A DNA stretch of 64,000 nt, from NCBI RefSeq assembly GCF_037975245.1, contig NC_092574.1, forward strand, positions 23,499,713-23,563,712, in the 5' to 3' direction. The position numbers and the translations under genes were made by a program. Source of the DNA: Apostichopus japonicus (lineage: Eukaryota; Echinodermata; Holothuroidea; Aspidochirotida; Stichopodidae). Of the stretch, positions 1 through 56,000 are shown piece by piece. The notes beneath the pieces were generated by a model, which saw only the letters and a list, made by a program, of their open reading frames with translations, was not told the origin of the DNA and did not search any database. The stretch's first letter is position 1. Every line of letters starts with the position of its first letter.

Positions 1-1493
1 AATTATTTTAGGGTGATTGTCACTGATGGGGTATATTACCAATGTGAGATGTTTATTACTAGGCTAGTGGAAAGCTTTATCCTTTGCTCTTGTTTATGTA
101 TCTTTTCTATTTCGTTTTAATCAGGATGCTTCTAGTTAGTGTACATTTTTCGATTTTGAAATAAAACTTTCAGTGCATTGCATTGTATACATTTTTGTTT
201 GCGTTTTTTTTCTTCTTCTTTCCTTCCTCATTTGTATTACTCCTGGCCGAGCTACCTTCACTATAGTTTTGAGATGATGTTATGGTGTTATCACCTTGTC
301 TAAGTATAGTTTTTGAAGGCCACTTCCTGAAGTATGAGATGGTTCAGTTAAGTCAAAGCAATTCAACTCTATAATGAACTTTCCACAAATTGTAGCGATG
401 TTCCAAGTCAACTGGAATTGGGGGCAATGAGGGTTCCTACACAACACATTGTGTTACTCCTGGCCAAGCTACCCTCACTATAGTTTTGAGAGTATGCCCT
501 TGTCTTAGAATAGTTTTTGAAGGCCACTTCCTGAAGTATTGGAGGGTTCAGTCAAGTCAAAGCAATTTAACTCTATAATGAACTTTCCACAAATTGTAGC
601 GATGTACCAAAGTCAACTAGGATCGAGGCAATGAAGGTTCCTACACAACATGTTCAGTGGTGTCCAAGAAGCAGACTTATACCATTGGAGGCTATTGTAT
701 CATTTGAGTGTATCCTCCAAAACATTTCAAAAATTATGAGGTAACCCCAATGGTATCTGAAACTAAGTTTAACTGCATGACCAAAGTTTGATTGTACCAT
801 GTCCATGGCACCTTATTTTTTTTTTAATTCAAAGGATGCAGGGGTGTAGTGTGCATCGCTATAGTTTACCACTCTCCCTTCTCTAACCTCAGTGACACTT
901 CTGAAACAATGAGTTGAGGGTCATCATAATTAGATGGGGTTTCAGATATAAGTGTGGGGCAATGTTTGGTTCAATATAAGTTCTTGCTGTGCAGTATACT
1001 TTGGATACGTTGATAACATTTCTAGTGTCGGAAGGTACCAAAGTTTGAAACTGAATGAAAGATTCCGCCTAGCCGATGCACTGCCACGGCGTACATCACA
1101 TAATAAGAAGCAGTCATCGTGTCATGAAAAGGTGATAGCCTATCGAATATCAGTGATCATGTGGCCGTCCTCGTTTCGTCTGGAAGTTTTTGTCCAGAGG
1201 GTACCCAGACTAGCTACGACACAGATTAGGGCGATTGGCCAATTGCCAATATTTCCTAGAAGTAAAGAAGTGTTTACTTGCTACACGATACGACCCATAA
1301 AGGTATCCGTTAGAAATGACGTAGCAATTGATCTTTTACTCGAATGGCATATATGCGGTATAACGCCCAGACCGCTGACAACACAGTGACCTGTGTGTGT
1401 AAATGATCGACTGTGTACCATATAGTACTGTCTTCAAGATCCAGGATCATAATGTAACAGCCAGGCAAATGAATTGCTTTCGGAATACGAAAA
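1..1493. other. Region upstream of the THAP-SAP30 gene
   Basis: Apart from the tandem duplication at 238-650 I see no recognisable gene here. The open frame at 952-1389 resembles no family I know and has ordinary non-coding composition. The 5' UTR and promoter of the downstream gene probably lie in the last few hundred bases, but no TATA box or other clear core element stands out. Confidence 0.5.
238..650. repeat. Two-copy tandem duplication, period about 217 bp
   Basis: Copy one starts at 238 and copy two at 455, both with TACTCCTGGCC. The copies stay recognisably alike to about 650, sharing GAAGGCCACTTCCTGAAGTA, the stretch TAATGAACTTTCCACAAATT and GGTTCCTACACAACA. They differ by scattered substitutions and a short indel near 275/492, so this is an old local duplication rather than an assembly artefact. 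Confidence 0.85.
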
Positions 1494-4400
1494 ATGCCGC
1501 ATTGCCAAGTTCGGGGCTGTTCTAACAATTCGTCGAGGCATCGGAAAAGTTTCTATTCTATTCCCAATCCAAAAACCCGGCCGGAACTGTGCAAGAAGTG
1601 GCTGGGAGCTATTTCAATTGATAAATTTGATATTGACACTTACACATTTCACATCGATAACGTTGTGTGTGAAGATCATTTTACCGAAGACTGCTACCAG
1701 GAGAATATGATGGCGAAGTTGTTAGGATATGAGCCTAAGCACAAATTATTAAAACGCGATGCTGTTCCAACACTTTTCGATAGGGTCCCAACCTCAAAAA
1801 TATTTCGACGTCCGAAAGAAGCAAAATCTGAAAGCAAACAAACGGGAACATCGAAGGTTAGTAACCAAATAATTCAGGAATCACATAGTATAGGCCTGTG
1901 CTATAATATCTAGGCTTTCACAGAAGCCTCTATAATTAAGGTGTAATAAAAGTTGTAGGCTGTAGTAACCAATGTAGCTTAATGTTCTCTCAACAAGTGG
2001 TTAATATATTGGTTATATCAAGGATGCAATAATCAGAATTGTTGTCTTCCATTGTGCCTGAGGAAACTGCATCTTTGGATCAAATTACTAGATTCTTTCC
2101 TCTCCATTTACTTTATTATTCTTTGACTCTCCCATGCTTTGCCTCTCCCATGCTTTCCCTTTTCACACTGTCGTGGCAAGGCACCATGTGCATCCTTTCG
2201 ATGAATACTGGAGCAATACGAAGGTTCATAAATAAATTATTACTATTATTTGTGTAAAGAACCAGGTGGTTATAAGGGGAGTCTCTGGTGATGACATCCA
2301 TGGGGGGGGGGGGGGAGAGGGAGATCGAGGTACAGTATGGCGAGAAAAGACAGAACTCAATTGTTTTTCTTTAGTGTCTGTTAGTATTTCTGCCCCGCTA
2401 GCAAGCTCTCAAAGAGATTTTGATGATAAACTACAGCAGGAAAAAATGTGGAAAATATACATACTTTTTTTTTTCATGCTTTAGTCTTAGACTTCATGTG
2501 TGTGCCACTTTGTGCATGATCCTTTTCATGGGTTCTTACCCTCCAAGTCAGGGAGTTTTGGAAGGCCAAAATGCAATAAACTAGTGCCCTACATTTGCCT
2601 AGAATTATATTGTGAAGACTTAATTCTTCATCCTGTCAAGTAACGTTTGGTAATGGATTCCCCTTTCTGAAATCCTAAAACAAAATCATGGTCATCCATG
2701 TCTCAAAAGGGGGTAGACCATAGGAATCCTTGCTATCTCCCCCCCCCCCTCTGCACTATCAAGCACTAGCCCCATTGCAGTAGCCCCATCGCACTATCAA
2801 GTAACTATGTTGATAGAATTGCATCACTGCAGGCTTCAGTGTGAAAGCCACATTTATTTTGTTTGCAGAGTTGGTTACTATGGCAGTATAGTTTTGCTAC
2901 ATACAGTTGACTCAGTGGTGTGGGCAACAGGGGCCAGAAGTGGCCTCACTCCCCCTCCACATCTATCATTGGTCAGAGTGAAATGGTTCAGTTCAGGTTT
3001 TTTTTTTACATAATTCTGGGGAAGAATTAGACCAACTCTTCAATTGTAAACCCCTTTTTCAACCTCTACACAATAATACAAGAGTATTTAACCAAACCGT
3101 GGTTAAGGGATATAATAGTAGACTTAATTTATATGCTAAGTACACCTCAGAATTCACCATTTGACATCTAAAATTGTAATTATCTTTCCTGGGAGAGCAC
3201 CCCTGTAGACCCCTACATTAGTGGGTGCTACCCCCTCCCCCACCCCCATGGTAGATCCTTTATTCACTTCCAGTCCTTTCATTTAGGTTCATTCTCTGCT
3301 CAATACAACAGCTACCTAATACACACAAGATTTTCTTAAAACTTACATTTTACAGAGTTTATTTTATTCACATGTTAATGTACATGGGGGTCTGCAAATC
3401 CATTGAAATTCAAAGGTCCATGGTGTTGTTCTTCAGTGGTTCCTAAATAAATGTGCACACTATGGATGTCATTTTACCTCCATCAGTATTTGAGAAAGTG
3501 TTACTCTTGTCCATCAATTTATGGGAACATTAAAAGTCATTAGCGTGGCCCAATTTTTCGTACTTTTCTAGAGGCTGTGATCCTCCAAATTATTCCAAGA
3601 CATTTAAGGCTGTTCAATGCTAGAAGTTCTCAGTGTGGATAATAACTCTAAAGGCCCGGTCACACTATACCGATTTTTTATCGGAATACTATCCGATTTT
3701 CCCGGAGGAATCGAAACAGCCACTTTTTCGTTCGGGTCTTCTAGCCACAGTGATAAGGGACCTGATTTGCTATTTGTTGAGCCATTCCGATGTGGAATAG
3801 CCCTCTCCTAACTTTTGATATTGACTCCGTTTCCTTTTATCGGATAGCTATCCGATTTCTCTTCCGATTTTCATCGTTTTTTGATGTGACGTCACTTCAG
3901 AATGTAGTCCGTTCCAGAACCCCTCAGATTTGGAGTAGGTATTCGAATATTCCACTGCATTCATTACATTCACTACCAAAAACCTCACTCTTCGGCCTAA
4001 AATCTGAAAAATCGGACCGTATTCCGATAAAATATCGCTGTAGTGTGACCGGGCCTTTAGAGTGGCAGGTAAAATAGCATGGGTGACCTTTAACTGAAAT
4101 TCTAACATATTTGGAGGCAATATCAATGACCTTTAAGTGGCTGTCCCAGGGACAGATACTGGTCATTCTCTGACTGCAGTTGTATACCGAATTGTTCCTT
4201 ATGTTGTTTGCGAATACAGACAAGGAAATGATCATTGTAAAACGATTGCAGTATTGAAAGTAATATGAGATACCATGAATGTTTAATTAAGTACTGTGTT
4301 TAGTCATTGACAGCAACGGTCATTAACGACCACCGTACAAATATAATTATTTATAATAGGCCTTGAGGTGCTGAAAGTATTCCAATGCCGATTACAGTTT

Positions 4401-7400
4401 GTAGTATATTTTCAAACCACTTGGGCGCGATGTAAACAACAGTATACAGTGTGTATTGTATTGAGCACGGAAATACAGCATGATAGGCCACACACTGGTT
4501 ACATAGCAGTACACGATTACATTGCACTGTTCCGCAACTAAGCACAGGCCTATACGTACTCCACAGCATTTTAACTTCAACGTTGCATTCATAATCTGTT
4601 TTCCATATCGTAAATTGTTTCCTCGTTTATATTTTAATACATGCCACGCCAGTATGAGTGAGAAGGTAAATATGGTCTTGTCTGAATATTCATCATGAAG
4701 ATTCTGACATAGTTTTGATAGTCTAACTAGACCGTAGTTATTAATCTTATTCATTGTTAATGCAAACGGTGTCCTAACGCGTAGCGTTAACTTGTACACA
4801 TTATTACCAAGACAAAGCCAAGGTTAAACAAGCTAGCTTAAAGTGCTTTACTTCCTAGCCTATATTCCATATTTTATCCTTTTCTTTACTCTATTCTTCA
4901 ATGTCTTTATTTATTTATTTATTCCTGCTTGACTGTCACAAGCTTTATTACACTGAAAATGTGGCCTAGCCTAGGCCAATATCGTTTTAAATGTGTCAGA
5001 CTTCAGGCATGTGCTATCTCCGTGTAACAGCATATTTTACCCTATGATTCTGTTTCTTCACAAAGGTTGCAAAAGTGAATGGTTTTGCTGCAGCAGTACA
5101 TGATGATCACAGTGGGGATGTTGGTCATGGACAGATTTGCTGTTTAATGGATGACAGTGTGAGATGTAAAAGACCAGCTGGAAATGCCTGCTACAGCAAG
5201 AGAATAGCTAAAACTGTACAGCAAAGAAAATTAAAGCTGAACATTGATCACAGTGTAAGTAGTAAGATGAATTGTTATAATGTGAAATTTTCCATATCAT
5301 TGGCATTTGTTATTACTGTTTGAAAAGAGGAAAATGCTCCCACTGAATTAGTGAATGTCAGAGTTGTTTATATTTTCATTAGTGTAATAATTTCACACTA
5401 GAGCTGCTGACTGTTTATAAGCAAGGTCTGGATGGTTTGAACTGTATGTATAAATTAGTCGTGCTTAATAAAAGAACCAAACTTTGTGAAATTAAGTACC
5501 TAATCGCATATTAATGTGATGTTACCATTTATTTTTATAAGCATTTGTTGGGATGGAAAGTGGTTTGAATGAGCATATTTTATTCTGAATAGGCAGAAAG
5601 TGGCATTAATTTACATTCCATCGCTTCATTAAGGTCGCAATCTAGGCAATCTATGTCCGATGTCATCAAGTTTCTCTTGCATATTTCAACCTCTTCATCC
5701 CATTCCATATATTTGTTTTCAATTATGGTGTGTAAAGTAAAACATGACAGCAATATAACTGTTGAAATTACTGATAAATTGTATAGCTCACAGTTACCGT
5801 ACAATAGTGAATGATTCCACTTTACCTCCGTAGGTTCGACATATCTACATTTGTGATTTCCACAAAAGCAAGATCCACAGTGTCAGAAATAATAAACGTA
5901 AACGAAAGACAAGTGAAGATGATGGGACAATCTCTCCTGTTCACGATGCTGATGTACCAGAGGTAGGCAACTTGCTGCTTATATGTCATTTTGGGAGATC
6001 AAACCCTGGTCACTTTAAATTGTGCAATGATCTGGGACGTTGACAGGGCAGCAATACTATGAATGTAAACTTAGTTTATTATACATTTGAAAAGAAATTT
6101 ACCTTAACCCTGCTCTTTCTCAGGGATGTATAGACCTTTGCCTAGACCGCTAGTAGTCAAGCTTTTTTTGTTGGTGACCCAGATTTTCACCTTCATCATC
6201 TTGGCAACCTTACAGTGGCAGATCTTGGGGTCTGGGGAAGGAGGTTCCCCTCCCTTTTGAGAATTTTTTTTGATTGATTATTTATATTTCATTATAGGTG
6301 CATAGTTGCAAAATTGTGTCTATAATTGGCAAATTTTGAAGTTATTTATATTCAAGACATTTTCCACAAAATACAGCAATTGTTTCCTTCAGAACTTTTT
6401 AGCAACCCACCAAATCGTTTTGACAACCCTAAAAAGGGTCGCGACTACCAGCTCGAATACCAGGGGCCTGTATCATTTTTTATCCTCAATGGTGTGGCTT
6501 GATTAATTTCTGCTTAGAACTAACACGTAGTGTGAAAGGTGTTATTTTCATCCATTGCATTAAAATCATTAAGTGGATCAGTTTGGTTCTCACATTTTGT
6601 TTTAGTTTTTGTGTATTCGTGTAAGGTCATGACAATTTAGATTGGCTTGAAAGAGAATCTTACTTGATTCATGTCTCGCAAAGGTAAAACCTAAATTAAG
6701 TAAATAACCAGGCACTAACTGGTGTCACATAGTAATATTGTTTATACAGCCAGCCAGCCAGCTAATGAAAGAGGTTTACTGACTTAAAAGATTTGTAAAA
6801 CCTGGTTTACCGGACACATAGGAACTGGAAGTTGTATGAATAAAGGAAGATTTTCGATTGGTCAGTTTCGTATTATCTAGGCTAAGTTTTGATACCTGCT
6901 TAACTTTCAAAAGCAACAGACTTTCCCAAGACTTTATATAAATGTTGTTAGCAAATATAGTAAGATTCTTTCCAAATTGCTTCAGAGGATGTACCAGCTC
7001 ACATGAATTATCATGTAACTGAAATCATTGCAGTACTGCAACTTATAAAACATGTTGTTAATGGAGGATAAACTGGTGAAGGATTTCTTGATCGATACTT
7101 TCTCCTTCAACAGGTGGACCTCTATGCTCTACAGGTGAACACTCTCAGAAGGTATAAGAAACATTTCAAGATACAGACTAAACCAGGCCTGAACAAAGCC
7201 CAGTTAGCAGAGGTAAGTCTAATCGATTGCAAAGTCAGCCAAGCGGAAGAACTGTTGTCCTTCACTGTGCACAACATGGACCTTGCATGTTGCATTCTTT
7301 CTTTCAAAAAAGACAGAATTTCTGCACTTTGCAAATGATCTACCATGATATAACTACATCCCTTAGCATTTCACATCAACAATCTAAAATTTAAAGATAT

Positions 7401-7909
7401 TTTCACATTCTTGCTGTTTCTAAATGAAATATTGAATCAAATTCCTACTCAGGTTTTTTGAGGGCTAAAGAGAAGGTTTATTGAAGCTGTGTAGTTCATT
7501 GTCTCTGAACCCAGTTTACAATTTACATGTCGTGTGGTTTTTCTTAAATTTTGAAGCATCCCTGTAGCGTATAACCACGGTATAAAATTGGCTCTGCAGA
7601 TACTGCCCAACTCTCCATTTTAAGGGTTTTATGCATTAAAATTCTATCCCTTCCCAGGCTTGAACTTAACCCACCGTTCAATCATGTTATTGTTCCAGTG
7701 TTCAAAATTACACATTTTTGCTGTAGTCACAACACCAGATACAGCTGCTAACCTTGCTAATTTATGGTTATCATGTCTTGATTGCGCAGATCGTTGCCAA
7801 GCATTTCAAGACTTTACCAGTGAAAGAGAAGGACGCCCTCACATACTTCATCTACATGGTAAAGAACAACAAGAGTCGATTCGATCAGAAGAATAACGAT
7901 AATGTCTAA
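1494..7909 (+). CDS. SAP30L-like: THAP domain-SAP30 (Sin3/HDAC corepressor) fusion protein, 5 exons, 299 aa
   Basis: Predicted nuclear corepressor subunit linking sequence-specific DNA binding to the Sin3-histone deacetylase complex. Exons: 1494-1856, 5066-5254, 5834-5962, 7114-7212, 7790-7909, all joined in phase 0. Residues 1-95 form a full THAP domain: C4, C9, C59 and H62 as the C2CH zinc ligands, with P26, W36, F63 and the terminal AVPTLF box (90-95). Residues 144-209 match the SAP30 zinc finger (C146/C147, C155, C191, H194) followed by a basic KRKRK stretch. Residues 228-290 match the Sin3-binding region (LQVNTLRRYKKHF, GLNKAQLAE, FIYMVKNNKS). The SAP30 part resembles vertebrate SAP30L more than SAP30. 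Exon 2 has no ATG of its own and is closed upstream by a TGA at 5045-5047, so it needs an upstream coding exon; the THAP exon supplies one in phase. Reading through the exon 1 donor would give a 139-residue THAP-only product ending at 1913. SAP30 identity is near certain; the fusion still needs a transcript. Confidence 0.88.
3646..4062. mobile_element. MITE-like element with ~22-bp terminal inverted repeats, in THAP-SAP30 intron 1
   Basis: Both ends carry AAAGGCCCGGTCACACTA in opposite orientation, each preceded by CTCT. Inside the ends a second layer of inverted repeats built on TATCGGAATAC and TCCGATTTT is visible. No transposase frame is present. A clear target duplication was not found. 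It separates the THAP exon from the SAP30 exons and contains a perfect TGACGTCA at 3887-3894. Confidence 0.8.
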
Positions 7910-13218: not shown

Positions 13219-16200
13219 TCAGCTCCAGCAAGTTTGATGAATATTCAAAAGTTCCTTACAGAACTTGTGAAGAGGAAAACCGACGACATTGAAGTAATCC
13301 CCTACGATTCCTTTAACCAGTGTTCCACCAAGCGCCTGGATGCCGTAACCTCCTGCTTTATCTCTGGAAATGAAACAGAGGTGAGTGGTAAGCACTCGTG
13401 TGATATATGTGTAATTTGTACGTTTGGTACTTGAGTGTTACTTATGTGGTTGGTACTTGTGTGATGTATGTGTACTTGTGTGGCTGTTCATACTTGAGTG
13501 AAAGATCTGTAGTTGGCATTGGTGTGATACTTCTGCAGTAGTGTAGTTTGGTACTTGAGCATTACATGTATAGTTGTCTTGTTTGGTACTTGTGTGCTAC
13601 ATGTGTACTTGCATGGTTTGTACTTGAGTGTTCAATGTGACATTGCTACTTGAGCGAAATTATGTGGTTGGAGCTTGACTGTCATTTGAGTGGTTTGTAC
13701 TTGTGTGATATATGTTAAGTTGTATGGTTAAAACTTGAAGGTCTATGAGATGTTATGTGTGTAATTTGGCACTTGTGTGATACAAGTTTGGTTGTATGGT
13801 TGTTATTTGTATGGTCATTTTTGGAGAAAAACTAATAAGTAAAATAAGGCAGAACAGTTTACTGTCTGGTGTTATCATTCTTGTTTAATCTTCTGAGCAT
13901 GGTTTCAAAACTGATTGAAACCCAGGTAAGTGCTTTATGTAAGCATCACGAAGGATATTACTAGATACTCACAAAGGTTCACCGGTTGCTATATACGCAT
14001 TGATGATATCAGAGGTGAGGTCTCCAAAGGTGACATCCGTGTCCTCAAAAAATGTCCGCACTTCAGTCTTCAGTTGACTAGCTAACGGTATTGAAGTATA
14101 AAAAACACAGAAAGTTACAGGAAAAATGGTAAAATTAATAATGTAACTTGTATCAAATATTCTCTTCTCAAAGGTCTGTATTAAAACATTTTAATTAAAG
14201 TGGTTGAAAAACCTTAATCTGTAGAAATGATATATATTTTTTTCTCAGAATTTCAGAGATTATGAAAGATACCTGGGTGTGTTTTGCAACAAAATGCACA
14301 AGGACAAATTGTACTGTTCGCTGTAATAACACTTTAAAAGCAAATCATGTGACTTTAACTTTCAGTTTTATATGTGTTAAGATTAAGGAGAGACTATTAC
14401 TTAGTTACACCAAATGTAAAAAGGTAACATTTTAGCCTGTTTAATCCATACCCACTTTTTGACTCACAAGTCACAAGAACAATGTCTTGAAATGTTTTGA
14501 TCTCTGCACTTTTGAGAAAGTGTTTCTGGCTAAAAGAAATATCGACTGGAAATTCACGGAACAACAACAAGATACTTTACGAGTTAACAAACCTTTTTGG
14601 TGCGATGCCACAAAAACCACTCCTGTATGAACTGAATGTGTTCTCCCACTTAACGAGGAGAGCATTTCAAAGGCATTGCTGGCATCCTTGGGTTTCTCTA
14701 GAATTTTTCCATCGAGAGCCTAGATGGTAAAAGTGAGACTAAAGCATATAAAACTAAGGACAAGTTACCAGATAAACAATGCATGTGGAAAACCCTTTGC
14801 TGACTTTTGATTGAATATTACACATTAAGTATATTTGCCCCAAAATGGCCACCCTCTCAGTTGGCTATGGTTATACAAAACTGAAATACTTCCAATGTCT
14901 GCCCCTCCTCCCCCTGAAAACTGTGCATTTTGCTATCCCCCTACCCCCCCCCCACCAAATCATGGTGCCACTACGGGCAATTGTTATCATGAGGTCCAGC
15001 CTTCTTACTGTATTAGCAAACAAGTCTGTTATGATTAGGAGGTTGCTTACTGTATATAAGTACTACCACTGGATCACATATTCAAGATCATTGGACTACA
15101 TTTAACATGAACACTGATGATAATTTATTGAATTTATCAGTGGAAGTGAAATACTTCCCTAGAAACAATTATTGAAACCAAAAACGCCTCATGCAACACC
15201 ATAAGGAAATGTTAAAGTGCTGTACTTATACCCACCACAACAGTATCTGCTCCTATGATCAGGTCAGGAATGCCGTCCTGTAAAAGAAAAATGGCTGAAC
15301 TTTGTCAGGCAAGACATTTGTACTGAAACAGCTGTTTAGAATAAGTTTGCACTTGTGCTTACAAAAGACAACTTTTGACATTGCATGAATTTGATTGAAT
15401 TGTTGTTTTTGTACTCATTTGGTTCCTTGGTCCATCTGTCTTGATTCCTAGCTCACATGCCTTGAACCCACTCCTCTCCCACCCCTCTCCCACCCTTCTG
15501 AAATTCGACGGATTGGATATTCTGTTGCTATTCCTAAAATTAATATTAACACAAAGAAACTCAATATTGTGGCACTTTTAGAGTTGTTCTAAGACATTTT
15601 TGACAAATGCCATTTATGGTTCTGCAGCATCTATATCATGCATTACATCTTTGCTCTGATCAGATGTAATTACGGGCTACATGTATTTAATGCAATGGAA
15701 ACAGCAAGCAAAAAAAAGTAGTGACTAGATATATTGTTGGTAGTACAAGTAGCTAAGAGAATAAAACCACAATATTGAGAGAACTTAATAATTAAAGGGT
15801 GTGAAGACTCGCGCACAAATAAACGTCTCATGCCTGTAATCTGACCTAGTTTGGAATGAGGTGTAACAGAAGTGTTCGACACCACCATCCATCCCAGAAA
15901 ATACACACACAGCTTGCTACCGTTAGTAATTAGCCACTAGTGTACAGTCAATACATACAGCTACGGTCAATCCCCACAACACAGTGTATATAGCAGCGAT
16001 GGGCATCTCAGGTCTAGATAAAAGATAACAAGGTATCACGTTTAATTACTGTCTGCATTTTGTAGCGACAAGAAGAAAAAGTCATTTGCAAGCAACGGAA
16101 AGTTAACTTTTTTCAGAGGGTGGCACGCGGTTTGGGGCGAGTCTTCAATGCCTTTAAAGTAAATTGTGAACTTTAACTTTGTCTGGTTGAAATGCCTCTG

Positions 16201-17225
16201 CTATTACTCTCATGAGCATACTTGGTACAGTAAAACTTAAAGAATACAAAAGTTTGAAGCAGCATAAAAGTTCAAAGAAGGATGGCTATACCAGAAATAG
16301 TAATGATTATATGTCGAAAGTACACTTTATTCAATGCACAACAAAGCAAAAATAAAATTATTCTGAACTACTCACCTTACCTAATCTCTCCTTCACCTCA
16401 AGCGTTTTCTGCCTCGCATTTTCTACAACATACGCCTGTGGTGAACTGAAACTTGATTTGTCAAGTGTTTCTTCAAACTTTGATGGTATAACCTCAAATT
16501 TCAAACCCTGGAAAGATAAGCAGCTGACTTAACTACAAACTATAAAACAAAGCATCACTAAAACACTGGACATAAAACTGATCTACATAAGTTGAGTATA
16601 ACATAAACTTAAAGTAATGTTAACAATTAATAGCAAAGTTGAGGCATTAGGTGGTTGATACTTCAGAATTATTTCCTGTCTCCTTCGAAACTGTGAGTCA
16701 AGTAAACTGTACAGGTCTGAAGACATAGCCTAGTTTGACAAATAAGAAGTCCAAATTATACACTGATGGTTGTCTATGATTTCTTTGAATAGAGTAAAAT
16801 ACACACATTAGCAGGTTTGGTACTGGTATATAGGCAAGGCTACGTGTCTAGTAATTATGAGCCATTGAGACACCAAACTATGGTAGGATAGCAAATGCTT
16901 ACTTGTAACTCGGGATGTCTGGGGGTCTGATGCTGTATGACTGTTCGCCATAACACTGGCAAGTGCATATCAATACCAATGTTTTTCATATGATATTACC
17001 CCTAACTCAACTGTTATTCTTTTGTAGCTGGCATGAGGGAGCAAGACGCAATTTACTAGTCTAGAATAGATCCTATACGTACGTACAGGCTAATATGCTA
17101 CTGTTTTTAGCATAACTGTGATCATATTTACTAACGATATTGCTCAGTATTTCCCTCCTCCTGGGCGAACCACTGGCCAAAACGACACGCTTAGTCGATA
17201 TTTGCGTTAGGATTGGTTGCAACAT
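13219..17225 (-). CDS. ASMTL-like: Maf-type nucleoside triphosphate pyrophosphatase (ASMTL N-domain homologue), 6 exons, 214 aa
   Basis: Cytosolic house-cleaning enzyme family that hydrolyses non-canonical nucleoside triphosphates to monophosphate and pyrophosphate. Exons in coding order: 17225-17136, 16507-16376, 15277-15236, 14719-14593, 14081-13973, 13363-13219; every junction keeps frame. Diagnostic Maf motifs are present in order: [12 protein letters not shown] (residues 16-27), [19 protein letters not shown] (83-88, catalytic-type Asp85), [21 protein letters not shown], and [13 protein letters not shown] from residue 168. Length matches single-domain Maf proteins. In vertebrate ASMTL an O-methyltransferase-like domain follows; here a TGA closes the frame soon after [13 protein letters not shown], so that half is absent. 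I chose ATG 17225 because it gives the same lead length as human ASMTL; an in-frame ATG at 17411 would add 62 residues of no recognisable kind. Exon 3 uses a GTGGGT donor and exon 4 a weak GTTTGT donor. Confidence 0.93.
13387..13830. repeat. Degenerate GT-rich minisatellite in the last Maf intron
   Basis: About 440 bp built from drifting copies of a unit resembling GGTACTTGTGTGATATATGT (variants GGTACTTGAGTGTTAC, TGGTTGGTACTTGTG). It begins about 25 bases upstream of the final-exon acceptor on the coding strand, so the repeat occupies the branch-point and polypyrimidine region. Confidence 0.7.
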
Positions 17226-19863
17226 ATCGGTACCTTTCTCAATAAGCGAACGAAACAAAACACAACCAATTGTGTATATTGTAAGCTCCGGATTCTGTGG
17301 TTGTAAGCTCACTATACATTTGTCAACGTACGTACTGTACTCGATTGATCCTGTTTGCATCAGAGCCTCCTTGTACGACGCAGGAACGGGAAAATCCCGT
17401 TGAAGTGGCATCGCCACGGAACGCCATCGAAAACCACAAAAAGTCCTTTACTTATAGTAGCTCTATATAACGAAAGTGGAAAGACGTCACTCATGCAATT
17501 CCCTGACCCTACTTTTTACAACTGTACAGTCTTATCTAATTAACCTCTCTTTCTCTCTCCATCTGTCGGTTGTATAACTCCATGTCATGTCCTCTGTTAA
17601 TATTGTCAGACTGAGTCTGGAGAAGTTTTACTGCCATCGAAACGCCAAGTTCTTTGACTTATATACGTTTTCATACCGAAAGGCTTTTTGTAGATATGTT
17701 AGTTATGAGCCCAGAACATCGCCCTCCGAAGGCTCCAACCATGCATTATTATTTGCATTTACAATTGATATCATTGCAACTATATATGCATTTTATATGT
17801 AGCAAGTAGAAGTCGCCGATGGGTGGGTTGCATATCGGTACTCCAATTGGGGTACCATTATATATGCAACGCAATACTTATCCACCTTCGGTATTGGCGT
17901 TTAGGCCTACATCTTGCAATTGTATTAACAGTGTCAGACTCGACGAGTGAAGATAATAAGATAGTACATAGAAAATTTCCATATGACAAGCGCAAGAATA
18001 AACATATTCTAAGCATCATGGTGGAATTTACATTCACATTTGAGATCACATATACCCCCCGTTATACGTCCATTTGTATAGCCTACTGCTTTGAAAAAAA
18101 AATGGAATTTATTTGACAAAGGTTCTCAACTCTATTATTTCACAAAGTTTAAAACATTTCATTAAATATTGAAATTTTGAACAAAAAGTGAAAAATTTAA
18201 ATTTTCCAAACTATTTTTGGAAAATTAAAAAGAAAAGGATTTTCATTTAACATTTTCATTAAAAATTAAAAAATGCCTATAAAGAATTACAAACATGCGT
18301 TTGGTGGAGATTGTGGCAATGGAAGCGTGTCACTTTCTGAAGTAAATATGATCATACTACCACATTTGCTACATGTTTTTCTTCTAAATTTAATTACAAG
18401 TTTTCGACTTCATAATTGAGATGCATCTCGATCAGTTGTGAAATACACTCACAGTCATTTGTATAATGTTAATTTCACACCCAGTGTGGCAAAGCAGTTC
18501 AACCCTATCCAATCGAAGTTCAATGCAATAATATTGAGTGAAAATAAAGTAAAGCAAAACAATTACTGTCATTGTGCAACTATATGCGTCTGTGATACCA
18601 CTGAAAATGATGTTGGGTCAATCTATCGCCCAGGCAGGGTGCGAAATGGATATTCAATAAATAAATAAATCAATAAATCAATCAATAAATAAATCAATAA
18701 ATAAAAGGAGTTTACCCTTGTTCGACCTCGCAAGAGGTCCTACGGGGATAATATTTAAGTTTTGTAGAATAGACACTTTTTTTTTCTAGGGAAAGTTGTC
18801 TATTATTCAAACAGGGAGATGCAGAGAAGTGAAGTATTGTTCAATTAACATTGTAAAGAAGCCATAAATAAACAAGAGGTCGGAACTGAAGAGCCAATTA
18901 GGTAGGGATTACTAAAGGGGGAGGAATTTCTAAGTAAATGGGATTTAAAGACAGAGCGGTTTCTATTATTTGGATATTCAATGTGGACCAGCTGGACGTT
19001 TTATACCCAACTCGTGGTTCACAGGCTCACAGCCCCTAATCCCTTGAAATGGATCGATATATCACGTTTTGTGGTCAAACTATCAGCAATGTATTCATGC
19101 GCGCATTTATTTATGTATTGAAATACTCTATTGATTAAGAGTAGGCCTGTGCAAAACTCAACTCTGCAAAGGCCCCAAGTTACACATATTCTATGTTTCC
19201 ACTTGTCATAATAAAGATTCTGACGGCTTTGGGAGTTTTGAACTGAATCTCGCAAACCTCAGAGAATTTGCCCATGGGCCGCACACTTTGTATAGCAAAT
19301 TAAAGTCCGAATTTAGTTATTATGTGAAATCTTTCAATTTAGGATTAAATCAAGTGCTAGTACCACATTTGTTATAAGGGCCCGTCATTTCAATTTCCAT
19401 CATATTTTTGGGTAAACAGGTATTACTGATGACCGAGTTAACGATTTGGGGGCGGGGGGGGGGGGACCTGCATCTATATGCGGGAAATCAACACTTCATT
19501 GCGGCTAAAACGCTATATCACTCTTTTAAAGCACTGCACTACGCAAGACACTTTGGTCAGTAATGCCTTCATCGGTATAAGCACACTCAAGTAGGCTATG
19601 CCAAATAGCTCAATTTTAATTATTCTCAGTGTAATATATAAAATCACCCGTAAGCATTGGAAAATTCAAAATTTTGAGCTTTTAACTTTTATTACGACAA
19701 TGTTTTTCCCCGAAGGTCGCGGGGAAGGCAGGGGGGGGGGGGGGGTAATCTCAGTTTTCGCAGGGTTACCATGAAACACTTAACATTTAAGCACAGATCC
19801 GGTCCGAGAACGTTTGCATTTACAAGGTCGGAGACTGTTATGAAACGCCTGCGGCAAAAAAAA
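17226..19863. promoter_or_regulatory. Head-to-head intergenic region between the Maf and ABHD18 genes
   Basis: The two start codons face away from each other across 2.6 kb, so both promoters are expected here. I see no TATA box, CpG island or clear binding site. It contains a tetranucleotide repeat (18656-18705), long G runs near 19449 and 19731, and no convincing additional exon. Confidence 0.4.
18656..18705. repeat. AATA/AATC tetranucleotide repeat
   Basis: Runs of AATA with interspersed AATC units. The preceding unique sequence and A-rich tail could be the 3' end of a retroposon, but no family is recognised. Confidence 0.7.
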
Positions 19864-28897
<9,034 letters not shown>

Positions 28898-29525
28898 GTC
28901 ACCCGGAGACCAAGTAATTATGAAAAAAAAGATTGTACATTTAATCTGAAAGTTGAACCTCATTGAGAGAAATTGATTTTTGCATGTTCCAAGGCATTAA
29001 TTATGACAGTATCGCACAGTGTAACCTCATAATCATTTTAACCCGGTTCTAAGTAGTCTCTTGAATACGAGAGATCAGAAATTGAAAAACAGGAATGACG
29101 TGAGCTCAAAGAAAATTTACAGTCCATGGGAAGTAACTCTCAAATGGTCAGATTAAATTTATATGATCAAAACACACAGCTTTAAAAGCCGAGCCTTTAT
29201 GTACAGGTCAATTGGTTACAAACCTTGGCAACTTGTTTGGTTGATAGTCTCCTTTAAAAGGTTACCTATTTGAGATGATATAGTTCTAAAGAACAGTCTA
29301 CGATAGCTTTATTTATGTCTATTTTAAATCTTGTTTCACTTGATACAATGCTGCATTAAGTAATCGCCTGATAATTAACTTTATTCTGCGATGACGTGGA
29401 ATAGTCAAAGTGAAATAGCACGACCCTTCAGGGCAAAATTTTCAGAATTTTTTGCCAAACAGCAATTTTTTTTGCCCCCCCCCCACCCACCAACAAAAAT
29501 GTAGCTTCAACAGAATGACCACTAT

Positions 29526-30000
29526 GTGCACTGTAGGGGAGATGTGTAGGTTTGATGAATAGAACACCAATATGTACATTGTAGGAGAGATGTGTAGGTT
29601 GGTGAATAGAACAGCAATATGTACACTGTAGGAGAGATTTGTAGGTTTGGTGAATAGAACAGCAATATGTACACTGTAGGAGAGATGTGTAGGTTTGGTG
29701 AATAGAACAGCAATATGTACACTGTAGGAGAGATGTGTAGGTTGGTGAATAGAACAGCAATATGTACACTGTAGGAGAGATTTGTAGGTTTGGTGAATAG
29801 AACAGCAATATGTACACTGTAGGAGAGATGTGTAGGTTTGGTGAATAGAACACCAATATGTACACTGTAGGAGAGATGTGTAGGTTTGGTGAATAAACAC
29901 CAATATGTACACTGTAGGAGAGATGTGCAGGTTTTGTGAATAGAACACCAATATGTACACTGTAGGAGAGTTGTGTAGGTTTGGTGAATAGATCATCAAG
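29526..30000. repeat. 48-bp minisatellite, about ten copies
   Basis: Tandem copies of a unit starting GTACACTGTAGGAGAGATGT and ending AATAGAACAGCAATAT, beginning near 29526, 29574, 29621, 29669, 29717, 29764, 29812, 29860, 29907 and 29955. Most units are 48 bp; some are 47 through loss of a T in GGTTTGGTG or of a base near GAATAGAAC. Because 48 is divisible by three, the minus strand stays open for 191 codons as a 16-residue repeat. I regard that as a by-product. Confidence 0.95.
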
Positions 30001-33000
30001 GTTGGGGATGCTAACAATTTATCACTTCACAAAATATTTAGTTGCAATCGAATCCAAAATTTCAAATGGAGACAACTAGTTGTCTGCGGGACAACCTCCA
30101 CAGCTGATTTTGGTCGGCCGAACAGAAATTTGGTCGTCTCGGAGGACTAGGAATACCGTTAAAAACTTTCCCTACCATTGCGTGCTAGAAATTCCCAAAG
30201 TTGCGTGACTTATTGTTGGTGTCTTGTTCACTTGTTTGTTTTTCTATCCCACTCGAGGGCGGGAGGTTGTTATTTGTATCGTAATGTTGCCCAATCTATA
30301 CACAGTATAGCAATTCAGTTATGTTTGTGTAGCATTGTGCTATGTGATACTGTATACAATTATTATGATTACCTGGTATGGCTAGATAGTAGAAGTGTGT
30401 GTTACACTGAAGTCACAAGAGAGGTGTGCAAAATCAGGAAAGGTTTTGTTGGTTTTCAAAACAAACATATCACTAAATCCCAATAGGCTTGTAACATCTG
30501 CATCATAGCAGATTCTGTCAGCCTAGTCTGCTGTGAATTTGAGAATAGGATTTTATGTGATTTGTAAGAGCTAATTTCCGACTAATTTCACTTTAAGGTT
30601 TTGAGAAAAATCACTACGGAGAATTCATTCATTTGAAAGTGAAACAGGATTGGGTTTGCATGTCTGTGTGTGTGTGTGTGTGTATTGGATTGGGGGGCGA
30701 GGGGTTAGGGTGGGGGGATTCCTACGATTTTTTGGAAATAAACTGTAACCAGCTATAATCAGTACATACTAAATGGACCAATCAAAATACGCCAGAACGT
30801 AAAGTTCGTAAGTCTAAAATGCCTTTTGATGTATCCTTAAATGGCTTGGCGGGAAAACAAGTCATGCTGTCATATGTTTGTGTGATTTGGCTAGCCTACT
30901 ACACAAACGACTACATTGTAAAGGTATAATGTGCTAGCCTAGGAAGGAGACAGAACTGTCGTTGCTAGTATGTAATGCTGAAAGTTGTAGTCAGCTCTGT
31001 GAAATCCTAATGTTAAACAACTGCAATAAGTGTACTCAAAACAATATGTTTACAATTAATGTGATTTAAATTTATACCATGTAAGTCTCAGATGATACTT
31101 GTTTTGATCAGAATTTATTTGACCAGAAGTCTGCAGAAATCTGCATTTTGAGCATTATTTTGAAATCTGCATTTTAAATGATATTTCAGACAAATAATTA
31201 TTCAAATGCCAACTTTGGTAGCAAATTGTTGCAAAAGGTGCATGAAAAACATTATTGCGTTGATTGCAATTATAAACAGCAAGTCTAGTTCACTTTGTTG
31301 TTGTCAGGAATTAATCACTTGTCAATAGAATGTCACATTCTGTTTCTAAATATCTTTTGGCAAAGATACATCAAAATTGTTGAGTGCGACATTAAAGAAA
31401 TCTGACTCTTTAGTAGTTCAGAATAGAACGTCATAGAATATCAGGTTGTAATTTCGATTAAGTGGAGAAAATAAAGGTTTTATCAGGAAATCCTGGCTTT
31501 ATTTGGAAAGACACTTTAGGAGAAAAGGATAACACAATTCCAAAGCAAAATTTAAGAGTAAATGAATTAATTTCTCCATTCTTGGCGCTTCATGATAAAT
31601 CAATAAGAAGAGAAATGATTTATTTTAAAACCTCCAAGTTCCTCTAAGTTTCCTAAAGTTTCCTAGTTTCCAAGTTTCCTAAAATTGAAATTTATGCTTG
31701 GTGCTTTGCATGTACTTAAAATTAATTAAGCTATTCCTTTTTTTTTTGTCTTGTCATCTTCAAAATGAAATGAAATGCTTTTTGGACAAGACCTCTTGAT
31801 TTCTTGCTAAGATTAGACAATTAATAAGCTTTATTTTTTATTTTTCTTGCATCCCAGTGAGAGGGTGGTATGTTGGACATTGTTGACCTGTTAGATGAAA
31901 CCTTGATTAAAGGAGAACCAAACATATTTGCCATCTTTCTACATGATATTGTAATGCTTTTGATGGGCAACAACCCCCCCCCATCCCATCCCATGCACCT
32001 GACCCCCACCTTATAAAGAGAAAATCAGAGATAAACCCATTTATGAAATTTCAAAGTATATGTCATGTCAAGGGCAGCCAATCTATTCAATGGCTGATGT
32101 CCATTAGTATATTCATCCATGGAATATCTTATGTTCCATTATTATTATTATTATCATTATTATTGTTTTTAATTGTAATTTTAATAATTTCCATGCAATG
32201 GTGGACAATGTTGTGTATAGAAATGTTAGGAGTGGGCCGTGTTAAAATCACCAATATTTTATTTTTAAAAGAACAATTTATGCAAATGCCATCTCTTCAA
32301 AATAAAATACATGATTTCATTAAAACATCAATAAACTTAAGTGGCTGCATGTCATATCACATTTAGACTTGAGATAAGTCTTCCAGTACATAAGAACACC
32401 CGATAATATGACTTCTTTTAAAAGGAACGCGATTATTCTCCTCCATCTCGTAGAGCTGTCCATCGTAACATCTTTTACGTCACAGACGTTAATAATGGAT
32501 CAGTTTGCTCCACTTGCTGCTCCTATGTCAATCTGTTACCGCAGCTCAAAAGAAAAACATTTCTAAATTTGCTAACAAAAGATAAGTTAATTTGATGTGT
32601 GGGCGCCCAACTCCACCATGAATCGCTAATGTTAAACTTCACAATTGTTAACCGTGTAAAGGGATAACACTTTAACATTGGTTGATCCAAATATCTGTTC
32701 TATAAAGTCTTTATCCAGTGCAGTATAAAATGCATTTTAACGTGATTCATTTGCGCTCAAATTCCAATTATCTGCTTTTTTATTTCAAAGAAATACGAGC
32801 GATAACATTCAACATACAGGGTATACACAAAAAAACAATTTTCTTCTTTGCAAGTTTGTACAATGCTTTGTCATGAATTGTATTTTACCATTGCATTATT
32901 AATATGTAATCTTAAAGTATTGAAATATTATCTTTCATAGTGAACAAAATTGTGATTTATTGGAAGTTAATAAAGTCATGCAGCTGAAATGGTAACTGTT

Positions 33001-41200: not shown

Positions 41201-42086
41201 CGCTCACATGGTAGTCGGTTTCATCGATCTCCTCCTTTTGAAATCCTTGAAATTCCTCTGGCGGCCTTCCATAGAGGTTCACGCCCCTACCGAAATCAAT
41301 CGGTGGAAATGTATATATTTGGTACCCCCACCCACCCTACCTTTGAAATCCGGTGCAGTCCAACGAGGAAGATAGAGGAGGGGCATGAGTTACCCTAAAC
41401 AGTAAATAATGATAATGACATTTTCAATATCACCTCAGAAGCTCTTAGGAAACTCAAGATGGATAGTATATATGGTGAGTATATAGTCTGGCAACAGTGA
41501 ATGTGAAGTGAAAATTCAACCACAATATGCAACGAATACACCATGAAGACTATACTAAATATATGTAATATAAAGTATATGCGTAGTCAGTCACATGGAG
41601 TAAATGTTGCATTTTGTGGCTCTGGCTTCGAAATTCCCACTTTATCCACCCCCCCCCCAGCCCTCCTACACCCCTGCCCTCCGATTGAATATTTGTTACC
41701 TCCTTAATTGTAGCTGCCTTTACTCACCTAAGTATGTAGCGTTGTTGGTTGGGTCTCGAGAAGTACACGATGTGGTTTAACATTAAATACCCGGTTACAC
41801 CAATGGCAACCAAAGCCCCGAATCCTGCCGTTGGCCACGCAATCGCCTTGAAGTACTTCTGGTGGCTGTAGGCGTCCCATATAATCAATGGCAGGGCCAC
41901 ACACACAATCAGAGAATATGCTATTATGTATACTGGTCGAACCCATCGACGCCAGGTCCAACGGCGGCCGTTTGGATTACCTTTTACTGGGTCACCTCTT
42001 ACAGGGTCAACTGTCCCAGGGTCAACTGTAAATGTGTCAACTGATACTGGGTCTATTTGGGTTACTCCTGTGTCCGTCGGCTCCAT
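35295..42086 (-). CDS. TMEM184C: TMEM184C-type multipass membrane protein (OST-alpha/TMEM184 family), 8 exons, 438 aa
   Basis: Membrane protein of the Solute_trans_a family, related to organic solute transporter alpha; the exact activity of TMEM184C is not established. Exons in coding order: 42086-41728, 39930-39894, 39482-39280, 38956-38885, 38404-38308, 37468-37259, 36953-36785, 35464-35295; all phases match. Hydrophobic spans include about 51-70, 84-104, 121-137, 150-165, a stretch within 207-226, about 243-256, 286-303 and 328-345, consistent with the family's seven-pass plan. Shared landmarks: RWVRPVYIIAYSL, LIVPIYSINA, AIYLDTICACYKSFVLY, FCCIKPGP, RCRNGVLNFVVLGP, CVKFCIFISFLQQ, FSHKPYMDKEP. 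The tail after 383 is acidic and Ser/Thr-rich (EGSTTDEDDTSSHDEE), as in relatives. Total length equals my recollection of the human protein. The N-terminal 40 residues hold a repeated xDPV/VDP pattern. Exon 7 ends at a GTACGT donor; reading on would stop at 36717. Confidence 0.92.
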
Positions 42087-42738
42087 AATGTGAGTTTTAT
42101 AAGTGACGTAATATTGCTTTGAAGATTTTGGTTGATATCATTCGATACTGTATAACCTGTCGTAATGAAAGTAACATTTCTAAAACAAAATATGTTGACA
42201 GATAAACAGACAGTCATAGATTACATTAGCACTTCGATTCGACTCACCAGTCGATTAAAAGTAAGTTTAAGCCACCTTCCCACAATCATGGATACTAAAA
42301 AAATACAAATTGGGGTGGAAGTGTTATAAACTGTAAAATTATTTTAGGCGCAGGGGAAAAGGACGTATCAGCGTCCAAGTATCACTGAGTTATTGAATCT
42401 TCTAGCGCCCCAAAACCCGATAAACACCAACTTGAGAAAGATACACGAGTGCAGTGGCAGTACAGAGGATAATATTACTGAACTGACGAGACTTACGACA
42501 GGGAGAAGGGGAGGGGGGGTGTCAAGTGGACACAGGCAAGAGTGAACGGTCAATAAGAGGGCACAGCAAACGGTATAGGTCTCTAGAAAGTATCGGATAA
42601 AGCAGGGGCGTATCCAGGATTTTCCAATAGGGGGGGCGCCAGGCATGAATGATCGCCGTCCTGGGGGATGGGTCTAAGGGGAGGTGCGTACAATTTTTGC
42701 TTTCAAAGAAGGGGTGAAATGCAAAATGGTGTCATATG

Positions 42739-53000: not shown

Positions 53001-56000
53001 AAATGGACTTTCCACAGATTACTTGACATCGACTTTCAGAGGAAAACCAGCCAGTATGTAAATTGTGCAGATGTGATGATGAATATTAATGTAACTGGTT
53101 GCACTTCATATTATCAAATGCAATTAGCAAAAGTTACACCCAGACACACACTCAACTTCAATGAATCCATACTAATGTTGTTATACCGTATTGCATCAGG
53201 CCGGGGCTCGGACTGCACTCCCCCCCCCCCCCCGTGGAGTCAGCCTCCCCTTCCTCGACCAGGCTTGTTCCCCTCATCACAGAAATCTCATCATAAATGG
53301 AGCATCCATATTGTAATTAGTCTAATCACTTACCAACAACGACTTCTCCAAATCTACTGGTATTGAAATGTGTTTAGCTTGTGGCAGGCAGTATATACAC
53401 CCTTCATAACGCCATTCACTATGGTACCACACCATGGGTACAGTACATCAGGAAAATACTAGTTTGTTTAAATTCACGGATATCAAATAACTGACTACAT
53501 TGCAGTTCTAAGGAAAATTTAGGTGAGGTATTTTAGATGAAAATGCCTCTTCATATATCTTGGGCCGACCAAATCATAAAAATGGAACTTGGTTCTAAGA
53601 TCTATTTTAAAAAGAGAGATGAGCATTAGAACTCTTAACTTGTGAGAGGTTTACTCACCCATACATTGGTTTATCTGGTGTCCTGCCATTAGCTGGTCCT
53701 AGTAATCTCTGATGCTCTGATTCCTCCTGTTCCTAACAAAGAGACAGTACCAAAGTTGGTTACGTTGGTTACGTTGGTTCTGTTATAAATTTTTGGTCAA
53801 AATACTTCATGGACATTGACTGGATACTCTAACACTTCAGAAACCAAGTAAAAGACATATAATATGGCTAAGAAAGTCTTGATTGAACTAGAGAGTGACT
53901 GTGCCCTATTGTAGCTTACTAAAACAAGACTTACCAGCTAAACCTATTGAGGAAGGAAGTACCCTCCTATTTAAGGATTATCAATATACTACATAACAAC
54001 ACATCAATTGAAAAAATATTGACAACGTTGTGTGTGGGCTGATGAATTGAATGTGTGCTTGAAGAAATAAACAGGTCTGATTTGTACACTATTTTGCAAA
54101 AGACCCAAATTACATTCCCTCTCCCACCGATATCTGATAAATGAGAAGGCACTACAAAGGCATGATGAAACTGCTTTGAAACCTTGCCAAAGCAAAAAAG
54201 TTTTGTAACTTTGTATAAACAAATCACTTTCTACGCCGATGAAGGTCAATTTCTCCGTACCACAGGGTAGTAGAAATGGACCAGTATATTTCACCTGCTA
54301 TACTAGCACAATGAACACATGTATCAGTGATGACCAATTCCTCATTGGCTACGCCGATGACCACAGTATCCAGTGGCGGCGGAACCGGGGGGGCTTGGGG
54401 GGGCTCAGCCCCCCCAATAAAAAAGTTGAGGGGGCAAATGCATGATAAGCCCCCCCAATATTTACCAAGGCTCCGAAACGTACATCTGCCCATTTTTCAA
54501 TGCATACTTGTCGATCTGTCCGATGCACACGTATACTCTATAGGTGTAATCATTTTAGTAATTGCTGGGGACCCTCGGCCCGTCCCTTGGCTATAGACCA
54601 CATTGTCACCCCAACCGCGTCTTCACGCCCCGTGAAAAGTGGAAGCAGTGAGTGTGAGTACCGGTAGCGTAACACAACTTCGTCTTAGGCCAATGACTTG
54701 CCTCATTTCAGCCAGTTCTCCAACATCCCCTTACTTAGTGGTGGATCGAGCGTCCATATATACAGTCAGGGGCGGATGCCCCCCCCCCCCTGACGGACTC
54801 AAATGGACTGCTGGCGCCCTTTTCAGCTTTTTACTACTTTTTACTTATTCGCGATTTTTGACTATTTTATTGCGCTCTCATATACCTATTGACATTTGTC
54901 ATATTCTGTTGGTGTAATTTTCCGACAAAATGGCGACGACACCTATTTATTCTCCGTTTATCTGCAAATTAGCAAGGCCCCGGAAAGGGTCATTTCCTGC
55001 AATCTCGGGAGTATCTTTTTACAAAAATTTTCTGTACGCTCCGCGCCAACCTGTGGTGGCGCTCCGTTTAGATAGTGTCGAAACCCCCCCTTACAGACCA
55101 TTCTTGCTACCCCCCCCCGGCCAATACCCCTAGCTCCGCCACTGCCGTTACTACACTCAAAAACGTCTTTGCGAGTACACTACGAGTAATAGCTACTCTC
55201 TTATAACAACATCGTATATACAAATTACAATGTTTTTACAGACTTTACGTGCAATCTGAGAAATTGCAGGCTTGAGACCCATATTTTAGGGCCAGGTATT
55301 CGCAGCATAAAACACTCGGGAAGTGCCGTTTCCGGCCATCTGGGGGTTTGAAAAAACCCAAAATTTTCTTGTACGCTCCGCGCCAACCGATGGTGGCGCT
55401 CCGCTTAGATAGTCTCCACACATTAGCCCCCCCAATAATTTTTCCGTTCCGCCGCGCCTGACAGTATCTACTCTAGTTTTAAACCCGGAGATGTTTCTTC
55501 AGAATTTGAGTCAATCAGGGGTCTTTCATCAACTCTAGAAAATGTGAAACTCTGGATGCATTTTAACCGTCTTAAGATGAATGATGAAAAATCGGAGTTT
55601 ATCGTTTTCGGAAGCAATCACCAACTACCAAAGTGCAATACAGACGTTTTATCCATTGGGGACACTCCCGTCCGTCGTACCCATAGTGTGAAGCTACTAG
55701 GTGTTTACTTGGATGAAACCCTCAATCTCAAACATCATATTTCCATGAAAGCTCGTGCATCAGCCCTCGCCATGTTTAATCTGAAGAAGATCCGGAAATA
55801 TTTGGACAAGTCGACATGTCTCAAAATTGCAAATGCCATGATTTTCTCTCATATGGACTATTGCAATGGTCTTTTTATCAACCTCCCGGCCTCCACACTT
55901 CATCCCCTACAAAGGATCCAAAATTACACGGCTAAAATTATTCTCGGAAGATCAAAATATGATAGTGCCTCCGCAGCATTGAAGGAGCTGCACATCCTCC

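Follow-up and report, generated by a model that had tools for sequence, protein, structure and literature searches.

A THAP domain exon upstream of a SAP30 gene that lacks its usual start codon: a candidate THAP-SAP30 gene in the sea cucumber Apostichopus japonicus

The window analysed here is a stretch of 64,000 nucleotides from Apostichopus japonicus (NC_092574.1, positions 23,499,713 to 23,563,712 of the forward strand, assembly GCF_037975245.1); all positions are counted from its first letter. A THAP coding exon of 121 codons lies on the + strand at 1494..1856. Residues 4-95 of its translation (1503-1778) cover all of the Pfam THAP profile (PF05485, positions 1-87, E=8.4e-16), and the frame matches the THAP1 structures 2jtg (E=5.6e-09) and 2ko0 (E=4.3e-08). 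The zinc ligands of the C-x4-C...C-x2-H module are present (C4, C9, C59, H62), and in the alignment to 2jtg P26, W36 and AVPTLF at 90-95 are kept. The complete C2CH module is accompanied by the positions (P, W, AVPTxF) that are invariant in THAP proteins. The THAP frame contains no HCF-1-type motif ([DE]HxY), and an AlphaFold model of the exon alone, built from the single sequence, was uninformative (pLDDT 38). Further upstream, at 232-650 and ahead of the CpG-rich block around the THAP exon, lies a CpG-poor duplicated segment of about 215 nt, with 84% identity between the copies.

Four SAP30 exons follow on the same strand: the first part of the zinc finger at 5066..5254 (Pfam zf-SAP30, 3e-19); the second part of the finger with a polybasic region at 5834..5962 (zf-SAP30, 1.7e-11 on 5834-5959); the first part of the Sin3-binding region at 7114..7212 (SAP30_Sin3_bdg, 1.8e-11 on 7108-7212); and the last coding exon with the stop at 7790..7909 (SAP30_Sin3_bdg, 6.7e-09). 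All four have GT/AG borders and are joined in phase 0, and the spliced protein contains an exact C-x8-C-x35-C-x2-H finger. This is the pattern given for animal SAP30 in PMC2711940, in passages that also describe SAP30 and SAP30L as four-exon genes, with longer cDNAs carrying predicted extra upstream exons, and the SAP30 finger with its basic region as DNA binding. The four coding exons found here agree with the exon count of the family. Matches were obtained to six distinct solved sequences of the SAP30 family; three are SAP30/SAP30L domain chains (1.6e-34 to 4.6e-23), and the other three, which are weaker, are labelled transcriptional regulatory protein SAP30 (3.5e-06 to 5.4e-05). No relatives of the SAP30 protein were found in the prokaryote and virus contig collections, and none of the THAP domain in the viral contig collection.

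Elsewhere in the window, a Maf-like gene lies on the - strand at 13246-17189 (Pfam PF02545 in three frames), with its first matched exon (17127-17189) inside a CpG-rich block (16951-18100), and an ABHD18 gene of several exons lies on the + strand at 23251-26870 (PF09752, best frame 1.9e-45). Repetitive open frames with units like TKPTHLSYSVHIGV occupy three frames of the - strand at 29431-30026, and no Pfam match was obtained for the frame at 29431-30018. An open frame at 41727-42137 (- strand) has a weak, sub-cut-off match to Solute_trans_a (E=0.00024). An open frame of 287 codons at 55439-56299 (+ strand), longer than any other in the window, gave no Pfam match; it contains a LKMNDEKSEFIVFGSN stretch, which presumably resembles the end of a non-LTR retrotransposon reverse transcriptase. 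No Rfam family matched in the window at its gathering score.

The SAP30 finger exon has no ATG start codon of its own. An in-frame TGA stands upstream at 5045-5047 and no in-frame ATG occurs before 5147, hence none ahead of the finger, so that translation of SAP30 must begin in an exon further upstream or at a codon other than AUG. At 5075 the codons GTG AAT GGT TTT read VNGF, and the GTG occupies the position of the start ATG in vertebrate SAP30, which begins MNGF. Translation might begin at this GTG, or the animal might carry an ATG there that the assembly misses through an error or a variant; neither case would require a coding exon further upstream, and the four exons present would be the normal number for SAP30/SAP30L (PMC2711940). 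We regard this explanation as improbable: it requires rare initiation or an unseen variant, and it leaves unexplained both the phase-0 acceptor-like sequence just 5' of the GTG and the fused gene model published for Holothuria glaberrima (see below). A later acceptor, at 5076, by which an A from upstream could restore an ATG, was tried and rejected (score -5.38).

An upstream coding exon can be supplied by the THAP exon. The original prediction had placed a phase-0 donor directly behind a complete THAP exon and a phase-0 acceptor before the SAP30 finger, joining the two into one protein of 299 residues, and each of these elements was recovered. The donor (AAG followed by GTTAGT at 1857..1862, boundary 1856/1857) and the acceptor AG (5064..5065) are both in phase 0, and the 1856->5066 join with the SAP30 exons gives a predicted frame of 299 residues with all three domains complete: THAP at 4-95, zf-SAP30 at 142-213 (E=4.3e-35) and SAP30_Sin3_bdg at 233-285 (E=1.9e-24, full profile). 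At the level of sequence, then, frame and splice signals allow THAP and SAP30 to be translated together; the domains, the frames, the missing usable ATG and the splice compatibility are all read directly from the letters. The domains are certainly beyond chance, the splice compatibility of THAP and SAP30 moderately so.

All splice scores rest on donor and acceptor matrices of our own making. On these, the THAP donor scores 7.75, a value equalled or bettered by 66 of 3670 GT sites, and it ranks first among 104 combinations of an ATG with a phase-0 donor in 1-5050; on the + strand, 381 of 9125 windows of 126 nt (4.2%) contain a phase-0 donor of this quality, and on the - strand 343 of 9125 do (3.8%). 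The acceptor is mediocre (5.46; 321 of 3647 AG sites score as well). Counting against the join are the T at +3 of the donor and the AAG at the acceptor, both of which are uncommon with respect to the splice consensus.

It had also been held that the SAP30 finger exon is the next usable coding exon behind THAP, and this proved wrong. A candidate first coding exon of four codons, MSEK (ATG AGT GAG AAG), lies at 4654..4665 on the + strand; its phase-0 donor (GTAAAT at 4666) scores 7.31, second of the 104 candidates in 1-5050, and fits the same acceptor at 5064-5065. SAP30 may thus also be made without THAP, from the MSEK exon. About 25% of the + strand windows of 700 bp, and about 24% of those on the - strand, contain a comparable candidate, and an out-of-frame ATG at 4641 precedes the MSEK ATG; measured by the chance levels of the two donors, that of THAP is somewhat more telling. 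The next-ranked candidates (6.56, 6.52 and 6.43) all exceed the donor of the accepted first SAP30 exon (6.15), so that weaker first exons also have to be considered.

The distribution of CpG bears on the choice between these exons. The window is a mosaic with an overall CpG o/e of 0.55; CpG-rich blocks were defined as 300-bp stretches with o/e >= 0.9 in the region 1-30 kb, and nine were obtained, of which five begin before 20 kb (1001-1950, 3551-4150, 4151-4900, 16951-18100, 19551-19950) and four beyond. The block over the THAP exon (1001..1950, o/e 1.05, 43 CpG) is a probable promoter or 5' region, and the 500-bp bins beside it fall to 0.16 and 0.32. A second block, over the MSEK candidate (4151..4900, o/e 0.90, 22 CpG), is a candidate internal SAP30 promoter. 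The CpG value of 4201-4900 is reached by 11 of 326 windows of 700 bp in 1-17 kb: nine in the THAP block, one at the MITE-like element and one being the stretch itself.

For this MITE-like element (3645..4063; 56-nt terminal inverted repeats, 91% complementary, with 307 nt between), blastn detected no further copy in the window. The element is CpG-rich (o/e 1.23), which points to an insertion between the THAP and SAP30 exons that is probably young. The blocks 3551-4150, which holds the element, and 4151-4900 abut through smoothing only, and 4064-4200 contains a single CpG. The DNA from the THAP exon to the element (1951..3644) is CpG-depleted, as a methylated intron would be; together with 4064-4150, leaving the element out, it holds 11 CpG in 1781 bases (o/e 0.16).

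According to the methylation figures in the text of PMC12550476, a sea star carries its methylation mostly in gene bodies, with 48-50% in introns, about 12% in intergenic DNA and about 5% in promoters. By analogy with that pattern, 1001-1950 and 4151-4900 look like two promoters, and 1951-4150 without the MITE-like element resembles an intron and not intergenic DNA, with a confidence that is moderate at best. Intron-like depletion here favours a transcription unit that covers both the THAP exon and SAP30, to which an internal start may be added. The region at about 8-13 kb is also depleted, including the presumed space between two convergent genes, and CpG depletion is for that reason weak evidence of transcription. 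The blocks themselves are not confined to promoters, since one beyond 20 kb (26401-26900) covers an ABHD18 exon, and this weighs on any reading with two promoters. A scan for TATA, NRF1, ETS, YY1, CRE, SP1, E-box and Inr found none of them in either block (1001-1950, 4151-4900); CCAAT was present and was given no weight.

The same features can be arranged as two neighbouring genes. THAP would then be separate and possibly a single-exon gene, its frame (ORF 1473-1913) reading on past the donor through 1857..1913 to its own stop TAG (1911-1913) for a product of 139 aa, with polyadenylation at about 1945-1965; SAP30 would start from its own promoter in 4151-4900 through MSEK or another short exon, and the fusion would be an artefact of prediction. 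The open frame to 1913 and the AATAAA at 1945..1950 count for such a gene and against the join, the latter signal being weak because 70 AATAAA occur in the 64 kb; so does MSEK, a competing first exon with the second-best donor some 400 bases 5' of SAP30, together with the CpG-rich block around it, which resembles that over the first matched exon of the Maf-like gene. Set against two genes are the ease with which MSEK-like candidates arise, the out-of-frame ATG ahead of MSEK, the occurrence of CpG-rich blocks at non-promoter positions such as the ABHD18 exon, the depletion of CpG from 1950 to 4150 (the MITE-like element apart), which is unlike what is expected of intergenic DNA, and the fused model published for H. 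glaberrima. Taking both sides together, we consider two separate genes rather unlikely.

That model also overtakes the statement, made with the original prediction, that no described THAP-SAP30 fusion was known to its author. PMC13228809, a Research Square preprint on the H. glaberrima genome (20 May 2026), reports 51 THAP genes, one of which has the SAP30 zinc finger and the SIN3-binding SAP30 region and is placed in class THAP-C; THAP leads in all but one of the 51 models, the exception not being identified in the text. As at the present locus, THAP, zf-SAP30 and the Sin3-binding region stand in one model, and the two are likened by domain scheme. Augustus predicted the models, guided by RNA-seq and protein hints, the latter including H. 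leucospilota proteins. Such a program may fuse two adjacent genes if the downstream one has no ATG, which limits the support lent by the predicted H. glaberrima model; no splice-junction evidence for THAP-SAP30 was seen in the sections consulted. According to the preprint, the class A to C architectures recur in many of the THAP genes that H. leucospilota and H. scabra possess, the SAP30 one not being named. A literature search for THAP with zf-SAP30 returned only this preprint, and one for SAP30L with Holothuria returned nothing. One sea cucumber therefore already has a published gene model with these domains, and the present analysis contributes the layout of the exons, the absence of the SAP30 start codon and a candidate second promoter. 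In the sections consulted, the preprint gives a domain scheme and does not discuss exon anatomy, loss of the start codon or a second promoter.

The THAP exon might also be a degenerate or mobile (P-element-like) THAP fragment that plays no part in SAP30, as transposase domains occur in some H. glaberrima THAP genes (class THAP-B in the text of PMC13228809). We judge this very improbable: the THAP frame is open, covers the full profile and has intact zinc ligands; no second copy of the exon was found in the window by blastn; and no transposase family was among the Pfam matches in the six frames of 1-30 kb. In 1-10 kb, the only families matched in the three + frames were THAP and SAP30, with neither a further THAP exon downstream nor a transposase domain among the matches, and the three - frames had no match up to E=0.1.

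The reading that we prefer, and hold to be somewhat probable, is that the SAP30 gene begins its coding sequence with the THAP exon and that one transcription unit makes THAP-SAP30, maybe with an internal promoter for a short SAP30. Phase, the ATG-less finger exon, the rank of the THAP donor and the published H. glaberrima model support it, and on these the interpretation first proposed is partly supported; what the proposal had overlooked is the rival first exon at 4654-4665 in a CpG-rich block, and THAP-SAP30 may be one of two products or an artefact of prediction. A more specific form, in which the ancestral SAP30 start codon was lost and promoter use switches one locus between THAP-SAP30 (from 1494) and an untargeted short MSEK-SAP30 (from 4654), is offered tentatively, as a possibility that we doubt.

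In the preferred reading, transcription would start in the CpG-rich block at about 1000-1490, the transcript would be spliced 1856->5066 and continue through the four SAP30 exons, and an internal promoter in 4151-4900 may additionally make the short MSEK form. Transcript, promoter activity, DNA targeting and repression are here what we infer from the sequence. The product would be a Sin3-complex subunit of 299 residues with an N-terminal THAP DNA-binding domain and three contacts: THAP to a specific site, the SAP30 finger and basic region to DNA, and the C-terminus to Sin3. Such a protein may be made, bind DNA and repress, and would bring Sin3-HDAC deacetylase activity to THAP sites.

Several known proteins share parts of this scheme. 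SAP30 and SAP30L likewise have four coding exons, the C-x8-C-x35-C-x2-H finger and a Sin3-binding C-terminus (matches to PDB 2n1u, 2kdp, 2ld7), whereas the present locus adds an upstream THAP exon and has a finger exon without ATG. THAP1 has the same C2CH domain (2jtg, E=5.6e-09), and is not known to have a SAP30 part. THAP7 is said, in the title of a paper, to be a THAP protein that recruits HDAC3/NCoR; it would recruit a corepressor by binding, whereas here THAP would belong to a corepressor subunit. For the THAP-CtBP protein of C. elegans (CTBP-1), Nicholas 2008 is reportedly the source. CTBP-1 joins THAP to a corepressor, as here, but that corepressor is CtBP and the lineage is another; the text of PMC13228809 presents it as a fusion of THAP to a corepressor and likens to CTBP1 an H. 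glaberrima THAP gene with a lactate dehydrogenase-type domain.

Separate transcription factors normally bring Sin3-HDAC to genes. If the preferred reading is true, one of its subunits would itself read sequence, a natural instance of a repressor complex that acquired target specificity through exon capture, to be compared with the nematode THAP-CtBP, and a transposase-related domain would have rewired a core chromatin complex. If the more doubtful two-promoter switch were true as well, the cell could select between site-directed and general recruitment of Sin3-HDAC through the promoter that it uses.
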